A stretch of 64,000 nucleotides of DNA from Conyzicola nivalis (lineage in GTDB: Bacteria; Actinomycetota; Actinomycetes; Actinomycetales; Microbacteriaceae): the NCBI RefSeq assembly GCF_014639655.1, contig NZ_BMGB01000001.1:868001-932000 (forward strand), read 5' to 3'. Under the pieces are notes generated by a model that was not told where the DNA came from, did no database searches, and was given only the letters and a program-made list of their open reading frames with translations. Both the position numbers and the translations under genes were made by a program. This document shows positions 7,232-60,669 of the stretch, piece by piece. Within the stretch, counting starts at the first letter, position 1. Each line of letters opens with the position of its first letter.

Positions 7232-7606
7232 CTACTTCGTGCCGAGCAGGTCGATCACGAAGGTGAGGGTGCGACCCGAGAGGCGGTGTCCGCCGCCGAC
7301 GGGGCCGTAGGCGAGCTCGGGCGGGCAGATCAGCTGGCGACGTCCGCCGACCTTCATGCCGGGGATGCCCTGCTGCCAGCCGGCGATGAGGCTGCCGAGC
7401 GGGAAGTTGATGCTCTGGCCGCGGCTCCAGCTGGAGTCGAACTCTTCGCCGCTCTCGAAGTCGACGCCGAGGTAGTGCACGTCGACGGTCGCGCCGGGCT
7501 GAGCCTCCGCGCCGGTTCCCTCTTCGATGTCGATGATCACGAGCTCGGTGGGCTCGGGGCCCTCGTAGAACTCGACTTCTGGCTTGGTCTTCGGTGAATC
7601 AGTCAT
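7232..7606 (-). CDS. FKBP-type peptidyl-prolyl cis-trans isomerase
   Basis: A 124-residue cytosolic FKBP that speeds proline isomerisation during folding. The FKBP fold covers residues 20-124: DVHYLGVDFESGEEFDSSW, the INFPLGSLIAGWQQGIPGMKVGGRRQLICPP core and a C-terminal LTFVIDLLGTK strand. No signal peptide is seen. I chose the ATG giving MTDSPKTKPEVEF; longer frames run into the repeat-rich intergenic DNA upstream. It is a lone gene with the palindrome array upstream and a hairpin downstream. Confidence 0.93.
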   Translation of the reverse strand: MTDSPKTKPEVEFYEGPEPTELVIIDIEEGTGAEAQPGATVDVHYLGVDFESGEEFDSSWSRGQSINFPLGSLIAGWQQGIPGMKVGGRRQLICPPELAYGPVGGGHRLSGRTLTFVIDLLGTK

Positions 7607-7687: not shown

Positions 7688-7783
7688 TCTCGCAACTCAG
7701 GCAGGAACAGCGGGCGGATGACTCGGGGCCCGGAAACCCGCGGGTGTGCGGCCGCGGCTCGGGTTTCTGCCTGAGTTGCGAGA
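7688..7783. repeat. Palindromic element IR1, copy A
   Basis: A 96-bp element bounded by perfect 16-bp inverted repeats: TCTCGCAACTCAGGCA at 7688-7703 and its reverse complement at 7768-7783. The GC-rich interior has the block CGGAAACCCGCGG, also found in the copies near 60.4 kb. It can fold as one long hairpin. It may be a REP- or MITE-like element or a transcript-end structure; no transposase lies nearby. Confidence 0.8.
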
Positions 7784-7810
7784 TCACGCCGCCTGATCCT
7801 CGGGCGGGCG

Positions 7811-7907
7811 ATCATCATTCAGGACGGATGCCCGCCCGCGCGGCTCGTCGCGCGTAATGGCGCGGGATCGTGCTGGCCGCGGGCGCATCCGCCCTGAATC
7901 ACGAACG
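7811..7907. repeat. Palindromic element IR2, locus 1
   Basis: A second palindrome between IR1 copies A and B. Inner arms ATTCAGGACGGATGC (7817-7831) and GCATCCGCCCTGAAT (7885-7899) match 14 of 15 when paired. Flanking bases extend the symmetry imperfectly to TTCGTGATTCAGG. The same core appears in the middle element of the second array (TTCGTGCTTCAGG at 60461), so IR2 is a repeated family of its own. Confidence 0.65.
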
Positions 7908-7912
7908 TGGGC

Positions 7913-8008
7913 TCTCGCAACTCAGGCAGGAACAGCGGGCGGGTGACTCGGGGCCCGGAAACCCGCGGGTGTGCGGCCGCGGCTCGGGATTCTGCCTGAG
8001 TTGCGAGA
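7913..8008. repeat. Palindromic element IR1, copy B
   Basis: A near-identical copy of element A, same 96-bp length and orientation, with the perfect 16-bp termini TCTCGCAACTCAGGCA (7913-7928) and reverse complement (7993-8008). The interior differs from copy A by only a couple of bases. It ends 30 nt downstream of the deaminase stop codon, so as RNA it would form a long hairpin at the 3' end of the salvage operon. Confidence 0.8.
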
Positions 8009-8037: not shown

Positions 8038-9444
8038 TCAGGCGACGCCGGCGCGCTCGGCGAGGGCCGAGGCCGCACGGGTCGCCGTACGGGCGACGGT
8101 GCGCTCGTCGACGCGGGTGAGCTCGCCGTCGGCGACAACCGTGCGGCCGTGCACGAAGAGCCGGGTGACCGGCGGCTGGGCGCCCAGGGTGAGCGCCGCG
8201 ACGGGGTCGGCGATTCCGGCGTGCTCGACGCCGTCGACCCGCCAGAGCACGAGGTCGGCCAGCTTGCCGACCTCGATCGAGCCGATCTCGTTCTGGCGTC
8301 CGAGCACACGGGCGCCGCCCATCGTCGCGATGTAGAGGCCCTGCCTCCCGGTCATGCCGTCTGCGCCCGCCCGCAGGCGGTTCATCAGCACGGCGTTGCG
8401 GATCTCGCTGCCGAGCTGCCCCGACTCGTTCGACGCCGAACCGTCGACGCCGAGGCCCACGGGCACCCCTGCGGCGAGAAGCTGCGGCACGGGCGCGATG
8501 CCCGCGGCGAGACGGGCGTTGGACGACGGGCAGTGCGCGACCCCCGTGCCCGTTGCGGCGAAGCGGTCGATCGCGTGCTCGTCGAGGTGTACGCAGTGCG
8601 CCATCCACACGTCGTCGCCCAACCACCCGAGGTCGTCGAGGTACTGGGTGGGAGTCTTGCCCCACTTCTCGAGGCAGAACGCGTCCTCCTCCACGGTCTC
8701 CGACCCGTGCGTGTGCAGGCGCACGTCCATCGAGCGGGCGAGCACCGCCGCCTCGGAGAGCAGGTCGGATGTCACGGAGAACGGCGAACACGGCGCGATC
8801 GCGATCTGCACCATCGCCTCCCGCGCGGGGTCGTGGTACTTCTCGACGGCGTCGGCGCTCGCCTGCAGGGCCGCCGACGTGGTCTCCACGGCGAAGTCCG
8901 GCGGCAGCCCGCCCTGCGAGCGGCCGAGGTCCATCGAGCCGCGGGTGCCGTGCAGCCGCACCCCGACGCGTGAGGCGGCCGCGATGATCCCGCCGAGGAT
9001 GTCGCCCGATCCGGCCGGGAACACGTAGTGGTGGTCGGCAACGGTCGTGCACCCCGAGCGGGCGAGCACGGCGATGGCCGCTTCGGCGCCCGCCTCGACG
9101 AGGTCGGCGTCGATCATCGACCACGCCGGGTAGAGCGCGACGAGCCAGTCGAACAGGATCGAGTCCTGCGCCCAGCCGCGGGTGAGCCACTGGTAGAGGT
9201 GGTGGTGGGTGTTGACGAGTCCGGGAGTGAGCAGGTGGCCGGCACCGTCGATCAGCTCGACCGTGGGCGGCGAGGCCAGCCTCTCCCCCGACGGCCCGAG
9301 GCCGCGCACGGCCCACTCCGGCGCCAGCCCGTCGCCGACCCCGACGATCTCGGCGTCGTCGAACGCGACCCAGCCGGTCGGGTACTCGGTGCCGTGGGTG
9401 TCGACGGTGGCGATCGTGGCGCCGCTGATTATGGTGCGGATCAT
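8038..9444 (-). CDS. Amidohydrolase, probable 8-oxoguanine deaminase
   Basis: A 468-residue amidohydrolase of the guanine/8-oxoguanine/chlorohydrolase group, which hydrolyses an amino group from a purine or triazine ring. Metal motif LVNTHHHLYQW lies near residue 78. HTHGS (about 245), MAHCVHL (about 280) and GVDGSASNE (about 330) supply the other ligands and catalytic residues. The DHHYVFP block resembles 8-oxoguanine deaminases. It follows a nucleoside phosphorylase and a nucleoside hydrolase, which supports a purine-base substrate. The exact substrate is inferred, and other purine or pterin amines are possible. Confidence 0.75.
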   Translation of the reverse strand: MIRTIISGATIATVDTHGTEYPTGWVAFDDAEIVGVGDGLAPEWAVRGLGPSGERLASPPTVELIDGAGHLLTPGLVNTHHHLYQWLTRGWAQDSILFDWLVALYPAWSMIDADLVEAGAEAAIAVLARSGCTTVADHHYVFPAGSGDILGGIIAAASRVGVRLHGTRGSMDLGRSQGGLPPDFAVETTSAALQASADAVEKYHDPAREAMVQIAIAPCSPFSVTSDLLSEAAVLARSMDVRLHTHGSETVEEDAFCLEKWGKTPTQYLDDLGWLGDDVWMAHCVHLDEHAIDRFAATGTGVAHCPSSNARLAAGIAPVPQLLAAGVPVGLGVDGSASNESGQLGSEIRNAVLMNRLRAGADGMTGRQGLYIATMGGARVLGRQNEIGSIEVGKLADLVLWRVDGVEHAGIADPVAALTLGAQPPVTRLFVHGRTVVADGELTRVDERTVARTATRAASALAERAGVA

Positions 9445-9460
9445 CGAACTTCGCTTTCCG

Positions 9461-10225
9461 CTAGAGGTCGAGGCTGACGGCGGTCTCGAGGGCGACCTCG
9501 ATGCTACGCATCCAGCCCTCCTTCATAGCCGCATTCTTGTCGGAGTACAGGGACGCGCCGTCGACCAGGTTGCTGGAGGCGGCGCAGATCATGCCGGCGC
9601 GCAGGCCGCGCAGTCGCGCGACGACGTAGAGGGCCGAGCTCTCCATCTCGACGTTGAGGATGCCGAGCCGGTTGAGTTCGCTGATCCACTCCGGGCCTTC
9701 GGCGTAGAAGGCGTCGTCGCTGGCGTTGATTCCGGAGAAAACCTTTGTCGACGAGCCGGCCGAGAGTTCGAGGGCTATGCGATGCAGCTCGACCGCGATC
9801 TTTAGGTCGGGAACGGCCGGGAACCCGTGGTGCGCGTACGCGGCCGTCGTGCCGTCGTTGCGCAGTGTGCCCTCGCTGACGAGCAGGTCGCCCGGTTCGA
9901 TACCCGCCTGCAGTCCGGCCGAGCTGCCGACGCGGATGAACGACGTGACACCCACGCGGGCGAGTTCCTCGACCGCGATGGCGGTCGAGGGGCAACCCAT
10001 CCCGGTCGACGTCGCCGTGATGTGCTTGCCCTTGTAGTACCCGGTCATGGTGCGGTGCTCGCGCTGATGCGCGATGTCTTTCACGTCGGTCAGGAACTCG
10101 GCGATCATGGGCACCCGGAACGGGTCGCCCGGCAGCAGCGCGACCGAGCTCACCTCGCCCGGCGCGATACCGATGTGGTACTGGCGGACGCCCTGTCCTT
10201 CGGAGTTCTTGTCGACGACGGTCAT
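9461..10225 (-). CDS. Nucleoside phosphorylase, uridine phosphorylase type
   Basis: A 254-residue PNP/UDP family phosphorylase that splits a nucleoside with phosphate into base and ribose 1-phosphate. SSVALLPGDPFRVPMIAEF near residue 25 is the phosphate-binding GDP block. VGSSAGLQ near 100 and NVEMESSALYVVARLRGL near 195 (ribose-binding Glu-Met-Glu region) are in place. Length and motifs fit uridine phosphorylase better than trimeric PNP, but a purine substrate cannot be excluded. It lies 12 nt after the nucleoside hydrolase and 16 nt before the deaminase, in one operon. Confidence 0.8.
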   Translation of the reverse strand: MTVVDKNSEGQGVRQYHIGIAPGEVSSVALLPGDPFRVPMIAEFLTDVKDIAHQREHRTMTGYYKGKHITATSTGMGCPSTAIAVEELARVGVTSFIRVGSSAGLQAGIEPGDLLVSEGTLRNDGTTAAYAHHGFPAVPDLKIAVELHRIALELSAGSSTKVFSGINASDDAFYAEGPEWISELNRLGILNVEMESSALYVVARLRGLRAGMICAASSNLVDGASLYSDKNAAMKEGWMRSIEVALETAVSLDL

Positions 10226-10237
10226 GACTGTCCTATC

Positions 10238-11215
10238 TCAAGCGGTGAGCAGTTTGGCGAGCAGGGTCGGTGCGAAGTCGTCGTCGAGTTCGAGCACGAC
10301 GCGCGCGTGGGCGCCGGACTGTTCCGGGAAGCCGTTGTACATGCCGCGCAGGTCGCAGATGGTCTGGCCGCGGCCGGGGCCGTCGGTGTGGTCGACGAGC
10401 ACACGCACCACCGGGGCGGTCTTCAGCCCGACCTCGCCGAGCGCGACCGCCACGGCGAGCGGGTCGTGCAGCGCCGAGGCGCGGTGGCCGTAGACGCCCA
10501 CGTAGAACTCGAAGTAGTAGTCGAGCATGTGGCCGAGGGCGACCGCGACGGGCCGGCCCGACTCGATGAGCGCCTCGCGGTGGTGCTCGAGGAAGACGTT
10601 GGGCATGGTCACGTCGAGGGGCACCATCGTGATGAACCAGTCGGCCGCGAAGACTTCCGCCGCGGCATCCGCATCGTTGGCGATATTCGCCTCGGCGACG
10701 GGCGTGATGTTGCCGGGCACGTTCGCGGCTCCGCCCATGAGCGTGAGTTCCTTGACCAAGCCGGGCAGCGCGGGATCGAGGCGCAGGGCGGCGGCGATGT
10801 TGGTGAGCGGGCCGATCGCGATGACGCGCAGCTCGCCCTCGTGCTCGTGGGCCAGGCGGACGAGCATCTGTTCCGCGGATTCGCCGTCGACGACGGATGA
10901 CACGGACTTCGCTATCGCGACGTCGCCGATTCCGTTCGCCCCGTGCACGTGCGGGGCACCGCCGCGGAAGCTGCCCACCTGGGGGTCGTGCGCACCGACG
11001 GCCACCGGGATGTCGTCGCGGCCGGAGAGCGCGATCAGGTCGAGCGTGTTGTGGGCGCCGACGCTGGCGGAGACATTGCCGCTCACGCTTCCGATGCCGA
11101 CGATCTCGATGCCGTTCGACTCGTCGGCGGCGGCCGCGAGGAGGTACGCGACCGCGAGGGCGTCGTCGATTCCGGTGTCGCAGTCGAGGTAGTAGGGGAC
11201 GCGTGCGGTGGTCAT
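10238..11215 (-). CDS. Inosine/uridine-preferring nucleoside hydrolase
   Basis: A 325-residue nucleoside N-ribohydrolase that cleaves ribonucleosides to base and ribose. The calcium-binding signature DCDTGIDDALA near residues 11-21 is exact, and further family blocks are GPLTNIAAAL, LMGGA and EANIANDADAA. The ATG has GGAG about 4 nt upstream. It is the first gene of the salvage trio. A TAGCAT -10 candidate sits at 11249-11254 on this strand. Confidence 0.88.
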   Translation of the reverse strand: MTTARVPYYLDCDTGIDDALAVAYLLAAAADESNGIEIVGIGSVSGNVSASVGAHNTLDLIALSGRDDIPVAVGAHDPQVGSFRGGAPHVHGANGIGDVAIAKSVSSVVDGESAEQMLVRLAHEHEGELRVIAIGPLTNIAAALRLDPALPGLVKELTLMGGAANVPGNITPVAEANIANDADAAAEVFAADWFITMVPLDVTMPNVFLEHHREALIESGRPVAVALGHMLDYYFEFYVGVYGHRASALHDPLAVAVALGEVGLKTAPVVRVLVDHTDGPGRGQTICDLRGMYNGFPEQSGAHARVVLELDDDFAPTLLAKLLTA

Positions 11216-29403: not shown

Positions 29404-29991
29404 TCACTCCGAAGGCGGCCGGTCGTACACCGCGATACCCGCCGCGACCGCCGCGTCACGGTAGGCGTGCGCGAGGCTGTCGACCGTCTCGTGCGCGTTG
29501 AGCCCGCTAGGGTTCGGCACTACCCAGAGCGCCGCGCCGCCCAGCCGCTCGGCCTGCGGTCCGACCGCCGTCTTCGGTCGGGCGAAGGCGGAACGGTACG
29601 CGGTGATCCCCAGCATCGCGACGACCGCGGGGGCCAGCGCCGTGACGCGGGTCTCGAGCAGCGCGGCACCCTCGACCAGCTGCTCCTTCGTGAGCTCGTC
29701 GGCCCGACGTGTGGCGGCGGCGACCAGGCTGGTGATGCCGATCCCCCGCGCGAAAAGGTGAGCACGGTCGTCGTCGTGCAGACCGGCAGACGCGTCGATG
29801 ACGCGGTCGGTGATACCCGCGCGGTAGAGGGCGGAATAGAAGCGGTTGCCGCGGAGGGCGAAGGGCGCCTGCACCGCGACCGTGTGCAGGCCGGGATTGA
29901 TGCCGACGAAGAGCAGCTTCAGGCCCGGTCCTACCGTGTCGGGCAGCGTGCGTCCGTAGAGGGCTGCGTCTTCGGAGGGTGTGCGGGCCAT
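29404..29991 (-). CDS. mug: Mismatch-specific uracil/thymine DNA glycosylase (Mug/TDG family)
   Basis: Removes uracil or damaged pyrimidines opposite guanine to start base-excision repair. It is 195 residues of the UDG superfamily, with LLFVGINPGLHTVA near residue 26 (catalytic Asn in GINPG), NRFYSALYRAGI near 48 and the insertion-loop motif VVPNPSGLNAHE near 160. The ATG overlaps the stop of the upstream EEP hydrolase by one base (TGATG), so they are co-translated. Confidence 0.9.
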   Translation of the reverse strand: MARTPSEDAALYGRTLPDTVGPGLKLLFVGINPGLHTVAVQAPFALRGNRFYSALYRAGITDRVIDASAGLHDDDRAHLFARGIGITSLVAAATRRADELTKEQLVEGAALLETRVTALAPAVVAMLGITAYRSAFARPKTAVGPQAERLGGAALWVVPNPSGLNAHETVDSLAHAYRDAAVAAGIAVYDRPPSE

Positions 29992-30848
29992 CAGGCGTGG
30001 GACGTGGCGGCAGCTGGAGCGGGCGAGGTAGACACGGCGCGCATCCGCAGCACGGCCTGCACCGGCTCGTGGTCGGACGGCGCTGCGCCCTCGAAGCGCG
30101 CCGTGTTGATGCCCATCGCCTTCACCTCGATGCCGCCCTTCACCAGCAGCCAGTCGATGCGCTTGCCGCCGACCTTCGGCGGGTGGTAGTTCGAGAAGGT
30201 GGTGAAGTCGTCGGAGAGCCGACGGTTGGGCATCAGCCAGGCGTCGACGAGGCCCGCGTTGTACATCAGCTCGCGGTACGGCGCCGAGTCGACGTCGGCG
30301 TTCGCGTCGCCGGTGACGATGACGGGCCCGCTCGCCTGACGGACAAGCCGGGTGAGCATCCGGGCCGACTGCAACCGGGCGGCGGCCGACAGGTGGTCGA
30401 AGTGGGTGTTGAAGGCGCGGAACTCGACGCCCGTGGCCAGGTCGCGGAACTCGGCCTGCACGACGGCCCGCGGCACGCGGTTGCCCCACGAGCGCGAACC
30501 GGGAACGAGCGGCGTGTTCGACAGCGCGAACTGGTGCCAGTCGACGAGCTCGAGCCGGGCGGAGTCGTAGAAGATCGGACTCGCCTCGCCCTCGCGGTTG
30601 GCGTTACGGCCGTGACCGACGCGTGCGTACGACGGGCCGAGGCACTCGCCCACGAACCGCGACTGGTCGAGCAGCGCCTCCTGCACGCCGAGCAGGGAGG
30701 GCAGCTCCGCCTGGAGCAGCGCGGCAATGAGGTGCTTGCGCCCGGACCACGCGTCCCGGCTGCGTCGCGGGAGCCGCGGCATCCGTCGCCTTATGTTGTA
30801 GCTCATAACGTGCAGGTCGGGAGGGGCGGTGGGCCCGATGAACGTCAT
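29991..30848 (-). CDS. Endonuclease/exonuclease/phosphatase (EEP) family protein
   Basis: A 285-residue DNase I-like metal-dependent phosphohydrolase. Family blocks are LHVMSYNIRRR (Asn), LLGVQEAL (catalytic Glu near 56), EFRAFNTHFDHLS (His), VIVTGDANADVDS (Asp-Asn pair near 175), KRIDWLLVKGG and the terminal SDHEPVQAVLR (Asp-His). All catalytic residues are present. No signal peptide is seen. Coupling to mug hints at DNA repair, but members also hydrolyse phosphoesters of lipids or sugars, so the substrate is open. Confidence 0.85.
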   Translation of the reverse strand: MTFIGPTAPPDLHVMSYNIRRRMPRLPRRSRDAWSGRKHLIAALLQAELPSLLGVQEALLDQSRFVGECLGPSYARVGHGRNANREGEASPIFYDSARLELVDWHQFALSNTPLVPGSRSWGNRVPRAVVQAEFRDLATGVEFRAFNTHFDHLSAAARLQSARMLTRLVRQASGPVIVTGDANADVDSAPYRELMYNAGLVDAWLMPNRRLSDDFTTFSNYHPPKVGGKRIDWLLVKGGIEVKAMGINTARFEGAAPSDHEPVQAVLRMRAVSTSPAPAAATSHA

Positions 30849-30868: not shown

Positions 30869-30956
30869 TTTCGGAAATTCAGGATGCCGCGACGGAAACA
30901 GCCCGCCACGGCCCGCACATCGGGCTGGGGCGGGCTGACTTCCTGAGTTTCCGAAA
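30869..30956. repeat. Solo palindrome related to IR1/IR2
   Basis: An 88-bp element between nusB and the EEP gene. Termini TTTCGGAAATTCAGGA (30869-30884) and TCCTGAGTTTCCGAAA (30941-30956) pair 15 of 16. A nested pair AGCCCGCC/GGCGGGCT lies inside. The core AATTCAGG resembles the AACTCAGG of IR1 and ATTCAGG of IR2. It sits 14 nt past the nusB stop and may act as its terminator. Confidence 0.7.
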
Positions 30957-31395: not shown

Positions 31396-31959
31396 CTAGT
31401 CGGTGACGCGGCCGAGGTAGCTGCCGTCGCGCGTGTCGACCTTGACCTTGGTGCCGATGTCGAGGAAGAGGGGAACCTGAATCTCGTAGCCGGTCTCGAC
31501 GGTGGCGGGCTTGGTTCCGCCGGTCGAGCGGTCGCCCTGCAGGCCGGGCTCGGTGTAGGTGATCTCGAGCGTGACGGAGGCGGGCAGCTCGACGTAGAGG
31601 GGGGCCTCGTTGTGCAGCGCGATCGTGACGTTCTGGTTCTCGAGCATGAAGTTGACGGCGTCGCCGACCTGGGCCGCCGAGAGGGTGATCTGGTCGTAGT
31701 TGCCGAGGTCCATGAACACGAAGTTCTCGCCGTCGGCGTAGAGGTACTGGTAGTCGGCGCGGTCGACGGTCTCGGTCTCGATCTTGGCACCGGCGTTGAA
31801 CGTGCGGTCGACGACCTTGCCGCTCATGACGTTCTTGACCTTGGTGCGCACGAAGGCGCCGCCCTTGCCCGGCTTCACGTGCTGGAACTCGATGACGGTC
31901 CACAGCTGGCCATCCATGTTGAGAACGACGCCGTTCTTGATGTCAGAGGTAGAAGCCAT
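31396..31959 (-). CDS. efp: Elongation factor P
   Basis: Relieves ribosome stalling at polyproline stretches. It is 187 residues with the three-domain EF-P fold. The tip loop in domain I reads [17 protein letters not shown], with the usually modified lysine position (PGKGGA) near 32. Domains II and III show [27 protein letters not shown] and [24 protein letters not shown]. No dedicated modification enzyme is in the window. It precedes nusB. Confidence 0.97.
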
Positions 31960-60336: not shown

Positions 60337-60443
60337 TCTCGCAACTCAGGCAGAAAAAGCGGGCCGGATGCCCGGGGTGCGGAAACCCGCGGCCCTCGCG
60401 TCGCAGGCGCCGCGGCATCCGAAAATCTGCCTGAGTTGCGAGA
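60337..60443. repeat. Palindromic element IR1, copy C
   Basis: A 107-bp element with the same perfect 16-bp termini as copies A and B: TCTCGCAACTCAGGCA (60337-60352) and its reverse complement (60428-60443). The interior shares CGGAAACCCGCGG with copies A and B and is about 95% identical to copy D. It lies about 35 bp upstream of the thrS -10 box. Confidence 0.8.
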
Positions 60444-60457
60444 AGGAGCGACGCTCT

Positions 60458-60558
60458 GTGTTCGTGCTTCAGGACGATTCACCGGCCGGGCCGTCACACC
60501 CGTGCATCTGCGGGGGCGGCTCCGCGGTCGCGGGCGATCGGTCCGGAATCGTGAACAC
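60458..60558. repeat. Palindromic element IR2, locus 2
   Basis: The middle palindrome of the array. Left end GTGTTCGTGCTTCAGGAC (60458-60475) and the reverse complement of the right end (60541-60558) agree at 14 of 18. The core TTCGTGCTTCAGGACG matches the outer arm of the IR2 element near 7.9 kb. Confidence 0.6.
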
Positions 60559-60562
60559 CCGC

Positions 60563-60669
60563 CTCCGCAACTCAGGCGGAAAAAGCGGGGCGGATGCCCG
60601 GGGTGCGGAAACCCGCGGCCCTCGCGTCCCGGGCGCCGCGGCATCCGAGAATCTGCCTGAGTTGCGAGA
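60563..60669. repeat. Palindromic element IR1, copy D
   Basis: A slightly decayed IR1: left end TCCGCAACTCAGGCGGA, right end TCTGCCTGAGTTGCGAGA, with two or three mismatches between arms. The interior is nearly identical to copy C, which points to recent duplication or conversion. Confidence 0.75.

Follow-up and report, generated by a model that had tools for sequence, protein, structure and literature searches.

The window, by which we mean the whole 64,000-nucleotide stretch of the Conyzicola nivalis genome that was analyzed, contains short inverted-repeat elements of three families, which we term IR1, IR2 and IR3. One array of these elements is located between an FKBP gene (7232-7606, minus strand) and a run of amidohydrolase, nucleoside phosphorylase and nucleoside hydrolase genes (8038-11215, minus strand). 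An initial annotation of this DNA described three consecutive elements in the order IR1-IR2-IR1 at 7688-8008, between the FKBP gene and the salvage genes, and the coordinates bear this out. IR1 element A (7688-7783; 96 bp) has 15-bp arms that bound 7690-7781, which corresponds to a 92-bp class, and IR1 element B (7913-8008) is of the same class and shares 98% identity with A over 96 bp; the two copies are 96% identical over a 105-bp repeat. Their inverted ends, TCTCGCAACTCAGGCAG, are indeed perfect as was originally proposed, but measure 17 bp and not 16 bp. The IR2 element that lies between them (7810-7906; about 97 bp) has TTCGTSATTCAGG-type arms of which the left one is imperfect, with one mismatch between ATTCAGGACGGATGC and GCATCCGCCCTGAAT. 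A second array at 60337-60669 has the same order as the first and comprises an IR1 element at 60339-60441 from a 103-bp class that is about one helical turn longer, an IR2 element at 60461-60555 with four mismatches in its arms, and a second IR1 copy of the 103-bp class at 60565-60667. No strand is assigned to any of these elements.

The array is beyond what is expected by chance, since the genome has 47 occurrences of CGCAACTCAGGCRG when at most one mismatch is allowed, as compared with 12 for a reversed control. The genome-wide copy search that the initial annotation recommended additionally indicates that the array is not confined to two loci, with IR1 present at 16 loci (22 elements in the genome) and IR2 present either alone or next to IR1. 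The elements are built from two conserved inverted arms with a core of AYTCAGG that surround a variable interior, and in this genus they also have a central dyad. Covariance models R1 and R2, built from the IR1 and IR2 elements and run on six genomes of the genus, match four and five of the six genomes, respectively, at an E-value of 0.1, and this uncovered IR3, whose arms are TTCGGAAATTCAGGA. The window itself has a further element of this type that is absent from the initial annotation, an 86-bp IR3 element (30870-30955, no strand assigned) with TTCGGAAATTCAGGA arms that lies between called minus-strand genes at 29991-30848 and 31396-31959. We gathered 106 elements across five genomes of this genus (31 IR1, 29 IR2 and 46 IR3), allowing at most three mismatches per arm and four in total, as a set drawn from fetched loci and not a full census.

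The array elements belong to a dispersed class of short repeats that spans several genera of one bacterial family. For example, in genome G276 the 10-mer CAACTCAGGA occurs 114 times versus 0 times for its reverse, and most of the 100 listed occurrences belong to regular double elements located across the chromosome. The number of elements also differs between related genomes, as individual genomes of genus g65 have anywhere between 0 and 53 matches to one exact pattern. A literature search for CAACTCAGGA together with "Microbacteri" gave no match.

Several other repeats were observed in the course of this analysis. A fourth family with arms CCAAATGMAGGAGA has a constant length of 79-80 bp and an interior that is conserved more strongly (GAGTCACACG in several members), with elements in contig G000:C1 of this genome at 1628291, 1710176, 2025599, 2025795, 2111244, 2277843 and 2279663. 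There are also inverted pairs of motifs like GAGCCTGTCGAA near positions 1367569, 1377588, 1534854, 1704860 and 2146028 of the same contig, which are apparently an unrelated repeat. Loci L312 and L313 (genomes G091 and G249) have nested palindromes in which CAACTCAGGA arms recur about 21 bp apart, so that the arm is the same but its arrangement differs.

Length ladder and pairing of the elements

Element lengths form a ladder of 54, 65, 76, 87, 98 and 107 bp, with a step of about 10.8 bp. Among the 106 elements, IR1 is 92-93, 102-104 or 113 bp long, IR2 is 93-96 or 106 bp long with one element of 89 bp, and IR3 is 86-87, 96-98 or 109 bp long with one element of 84 bp. Classes about one turn apart, which were drawn post hoc, accommodate 31 of 31 IR1, 28 of 29 IR2 and 45 of 46 IR3 elements. 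Because covariance models could favor their own length, we used plain free-gap patterns in which the gap could take 31 values. Among 398 genomes from the family, a short pattern (CAACTCAGG...CCTGAGTTG, outer length 52-82 bp) matches 36, in 13 of 85 genera, with a reversed control giving 0 matches, and a longer-range pattern matches 7. The places listed are the first ones in each genome, such that their length counts sample the matches; 91 places for the short pattern have lengths of 54, 64-66 or 75-78 bp with one of 61 bp (52-82 bp being allowed), and 21 places for the longer-range pattern have lengths of 85-87, 97-98 or 107 bp with one of 80 bp. The pooled lengths have a best period of 10.84, and when each genus contributes a single length per class (n=23), no uniform draw out of 5000 is equally periodic. 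In named genomes the long pattern is present in 16 stretches, of which nine are from Microbacteriaceae (six from two MAGs, and one each from Microcella, Yonghaparkia and Schumannella, with the Schumannella length off the ladder). The remaining seven stretches are from outside this family and have scattered lengths that we read as chance.

Phasing is also evident in the position of a dyad-symmetric centre (GGCCGCGGGATCCCGCGGCC once symmetrised), which is located in the exact middle of 79 of 86 elements of standard length. Thirteen long elements are informative in this regard, as the matrix was trained on standard-length elements and had not seen the long ones. In 12 of these 13, both arm-to-centre distances are 46-49 or 56-60, with the extra turn located on one side of the centre, or on both sides when the element is 113 bp in length; the exception (2459064) has distances of 48 and 54. 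The centre is mostly indistinct in seven short elements, and the 89-bp IR2 element is out of phase. One reading offered in the initial annotation, that of a protein-binding array, gains support from this helical phasing of arms and centre, with binding itself being a prediction.

The elements do not exhibit the pairing that is expected of a folded structure. Interior pairing within versus between elements is 0.335 versus 0.387 for IR1, 0.345 versus 0.384 for IR2 and 0.380 versus 0.355 (p 0.07) for IR3, so that the term palindrome used in the initial annotation describes the arms and, across the genus, a short centre, but not the whole element, whose interior pairs no better than that of unrelated elements. 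Compensatory changes in the arms, which had been put forward as a check, are not seen in IR1 and IR2, where complementarity within an element is no higher than across elements, and are present as a slight excess within elements in IR3 (0.873 versus 0.856, p 0.0045). Because the extra turns are one-sided, the interiors are unpaired and the IR1 and IR2 arms do not covary, the elements look like sites on double-stranded DNA and not like hairpins.

Orthologous gaps and genomic setting

The proposal that the array could be a non-autonomous mobile unit is supported by two observations, which are that dispersed copies match over the element and not over the flanks, and that an orthologous gap exists in three states. 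Eight hand-picked pairs of the most similar dispersed copies have element identities of 0.77-0.93 and flank identities of 0.35-0.70, except in one pair, where one flank (0.73-0.90) includes the neighboring IR2. The comparison of orthologous gaps that had been called for reveals filled and empty states that differ between species, with the FKBP gap containing IR1-IR2-IR1 in this genome (G000), one 98-bp IR3 element in G001 and only 33 bp of element-free DNA in G005. Within a locus some units are tandem copies with interiors that are up to 0.98 identical, while other neighboring pairs are unrelated (0.56-0.63). Between loci the interiors appear unrelated (IR3 mean of 0.58), though the arms are near perfect. 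IR3 pairs from orthologous gaps are no more similar than random pairs and thus give no support for vertical descent of single elements. No target-site duplication was found among the 106 elements when lengths of 2-10 were assayed at seven offsets in three families (189 tests; largest z of 2.6).

In 1.254 contiguous Mb of G000 there are 18 intergenic loci, of which 10 are between tandem genes, 8 between convergent genes and 0 between divergent genes, as compared with 190 tandem, 77 convergent and 91 divergent gaps among the 358 background gaps of at least 100 bp in the same segment. Four further loci of the segment lie inside ORF calls; one of these calls is over-extended and another locus (1418273) looks divergent from the sequence. 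At loci L125 and L139, G000 and G001 share the gene upstream of an IR1 element, but the genes downstream of it differ by eye, so that synteny is broken at the element or close to it.

Several other contexts for the elements were considered and rejected. Viral contigs have 0 matches to the IR1 and IR3 patterns, and the three viral contigs that match the short pattern do so at lengths of 70, 80 and 60 that are off the ladder and that we read as chance, which argues against carriage by phages. An integron attC cassette array does not fit the clustered IR3 elements, as they sit among core genes (including what we take to be dnaG, glyS and recO) without cassette genes between the sites. They also do not resemble matS/Ter terminus sites, as in G001 and G000 the IR3 clusters are about 180-340 kb away from the position that lies opposite dnaA, in a test where the G000 contig order was inferred and the strand profile was noisy.

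A nuclease gene bordered by elements

Three loci from two genera have homologous ORFs that lie between elements, and a tblastn search over 360 fetched loci places this gene in 11 separate locations, two each in G000 and G001 and one each in G005, G003, G276, the BP_162 contig, G254, G346 and G184. None of 40 grid samples, each 15 kb long and taken from G000 and G001, contains it. Elements are present on both sides of the gene in 9 of the 11 locations and on a single side in G005 and G346, with one flank given by construction since all 11 loci were fetched for elements or weak relatives of them. In several locations the called ORF extends slightly into an element. A nuclease gene flanked by elements was not anticipated in the initial annotation. 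The flanking arms are those of the genome's own family. In each of G000 and G001 one gene has IR2 arms around it and the other has IR3 arms, and the flanks carry TTTCGCAACTCAGGA-type dyads in G276, CGTCGGCAACTCAGG in G254 and GGTTCACAAYTCAGG in G184. Among 7042 ORFs in the 1.254-Mb stretch of G000 (38% of the genome) there are two members, both flanked on two sides; these are the two known locations, which the stretch took in, and the scan is thus no blind test. No member away from elements was found in this stretch. About 4 of the 1128 called genes in the G000 segment are flanked on each side by an element no more than 250 bp away, and these are a dsbA-like gene, a glyS-like gene, the IR2 gene and the IR3 gene, the last of which was added to the count by hand as its ORF call overruns an element. 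The IR3 gene occupies the same gap in four species, between neighbors that we recognize from their sequences as presumably dsbA and glyS.

IR3 elements are crowded near their own nuclease gene at 1074-1136 kb of G000:C1 and at 1755-1840 kb of G001:C1, the G001 stretches having been selected by matches. In the G000 segment, which starts merely 13 kb to the left of the gene, 16 of the 19 IR3 elements are no more than 60 kb from the IR3 gene. This crowding suggests local spread. A search for a gene cognate to IR1 at the 16 IR1 loci, throughout the window and across the scanned 38% of the genome yielded nothing, and none of the nuclease genes is located beside the 2025-kb pair of the fourth family, which was the sole neighborhood of that family inspected. 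The protein encoded by the IR2 gene of G000 has no match in plasmids (E 1e-10) or phages (E 1e-5), and the nuclease part has 13 distant relatives on viral contigs, which are without inverted pairs of element arms.

Domain matches and catalytic residues indicate that the protein is a DUF559/Vsr-like PD-(D/E)XK nuclease that is predicted to cleave DNA. Pfam DUF559 is above the cut-off in 5 of the 11 proteins, and the restriction-enzyme-like MTES_1575 is detected below the cut-off in 10 of 11. Residues D238, D250, H255, D264 and D268 are invariant across 11 sequences and E248 is nearly so. A protein profile matches PDB entry 3hrl, an endonuclease-like protein, with an E-value of 6e-5. The structural model of the BP_162 protein has a pLDDT of 52 overall and about 80 in the C-terminal domain, with an N-terminal half that is too low in confidence for use. 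The modeled C-terminal domain resembles 3hrl (Z 8.9, 1.9 A over 79 residues), the homing endonuclease I-Bth0305I (Z 8.1) and Vsr (Z 6.5), where a Z below 8 may reflect a common arrangement. There are also weak signs of an AbiEi-like winged helix, as AbiEi_4 is above the cut-off in 1 of 11 proteins, below it in 3 and unseen in 7 (3 of which were scanned only to an E-value of 0.01). NCBIfam gave no name for any of the five proteins scanned. None of the titles and abstract openings of the papers that matched DUF559 concerns repeats, and among the literature matches listed there is nothing on a system of elements plus nuclease.

A candidate element-nuclease system

Taken together, we think it probable, although well short of certain, that the array is part of a two-component system that resembles REPIN/RAYT, with mobile phased inverted repeats and a cognate winged-helix/DUF559-Vsr-like nuclease. 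In this system, the array would consist of short non-autonomous mobile inverted-repeat elements, with the arms, and the central dyad in this genus, providing predicted binding sites on double-stranded DNA. The cognate enzyme would combine an AbiEi-like winged helix, which we infer for most members, with a DUF559/Vsr-like PD-(D/E)XK nuclease whose gene bears elements at its borders, and binding of the arms by this protein is suggested by domain homology and by the flanking pattern. Each arm may take one monomer, with bridging over a short loop possible only if the arms share a helix face, a constraint that would give length steps of about 10.8 bp. The nuclease domain would then cut, and the element would be copied or moved by a homing-like repair or by excision. 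A more specific version, in which a winged-helix plus Vsr/EDxHD-type nuclease spreads phased elements of 54-113 bp by homing-like cut-and-repair, with several diverging enzyme-element pairs per genome and convergence with RAYTs on looped double-stranded DNA, is tentative, and we consider it less likely than not.

Aspects of this proposal have parallels in known systems. Vsr, the EDxHD enzyme I-Bth0305I and the DUF559 protein 3hrl share the predicted C-terminal fold, but here there is no intron or mismatch context and short repeats border the gene. The BIME (RIP) elements of E. coli are also about 100 bp long, with inverted ends around a central protein site at the 3' ends of transcription units, but involve REP ends, IHF or gyrase, and a RAYT. 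Operators of AbiE type IV toxin-antitoxin systems (AbiEi, Rv2827c) have inverted arms at a fixed spacing and a possibly related winged helix, with AbiEi described as binding 11-bp inverted arms separated by N27, one monomer being proposed per arm (PMC3985639), and with AbiEi-type boxes of 23 bp described as 3 or 13 bp apart in two systems (PMC7319586). These are operators that precede an operon, whereas here there are many dispersed copies and a nuclease-like domain. A length period of about 10 bp is reported for Paramecium internal eliminated sequences, where the authors interpret it as indicating that double-stranded DNA is looped in an excision complex and draw by analogy on helical-twist experiments with transposon ends (PMC3464196); those sequences differ in being eukaryotic and excised by a domesticated piggyBac transposase.

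The most serious competing view is that the nuclease-like protein does bind the elements, but as regulatory or architectural sites (its own operators plus a dispersed regulon or nucleoid sites) that are selected in place without movement. This would fit with near-perfect arms whose interiors differ as much as those of unrelated elements, with orthologous-gap pairs that are no more alike than random pairs, with the IR3 gene and several IR3-bearing gaps being common to G000 and G001, and with the report that AbiEi autoregulates via inverted arms (PMC3985639, PMC7319586). It would also fit with divergent gaps accounting for 0 of 18 intergenic loci versus 91 of 358 gaps, one divergent-looking locus (1418273) being inside an ORF call. 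We nevertheless judge it unlikely, as dispersed copies are alike over the element only, sites are either empty or filled, the g65 genomes have such different numbers of matches to one exact pattern, and the conserved nuclease core would be left unexplained. The elements could alternatively be ordinary MITEs of a DDE transposase that was lost or not found here, with the DUF559 gene as a passenger. Inverted ends, lengths of 54-113 bp and copies that are alike only over the element would all agree with this, as would the phasing reported for short transposons (PMC3464196), but the elements have no target duplication and members of the one protein family have different arm families at their borders, with elements on both sides of the gene in 9 of 11 locations, which makes this explanation quite improbable.

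Two further explanations would have the arms fold. Genuine REPINs, in which hairpin-forming REP doublets are moved by a Y1 HUH transposase, are likewise inverted doublets with a variable spacer that are intergenic, located in tandem and convergent gaps and found at the borders of their own gene (PMC3116915, PMC3733652), with several families in a genome, every one of which is close to a nuclease gene of its own (PMC3116915, PMC8049555, PMC3733652). The resemblance to the REPIN/RAYT systems of Pseudomonas and enterobacteria thus includes both the doublet and a nuclease gene bordered by its own family. However, Y1_Tnp is present in 0 of 30 genomes, with controls that are positive in 6 of 14 cases including E. 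coli, IR1 and IR2 lack the compensatory changes of a hairpin, lengths follow a helical ladder, and the DUF559/Vsr-like protein is of another enzyme class. We therefore reject membership in REPIN/RAYT and give such a mechanism very little credence. Similarly, a structured 3' RNA or terminator, which was another proposal of the initial annotation, could draw on arms that are able to pair and on intergenic loci that are all tandem (10) or convergent (8), but the unpaired interiors and the IR1 and IR2 arms without covariation (IR3 having its slight excess) lead us to reject an RNA hairpin, and the change by a whole turn on one side of the centre also opposes an RNA, such that we consider this reading extremely unlikely.

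A dedicated enzyme that accompanies dispersed palindromic repeats is known for RAYTs; here the protein class is unrelated and is annotated as of "unknown function" (DUF559). Under the proposed two-component system, DUF559 proteins would gain a candidate substrate. Additionally, the natural length ladder across genera would constitute a ready-made helical-twist experiment on a bacterial nucleoprotein complex.
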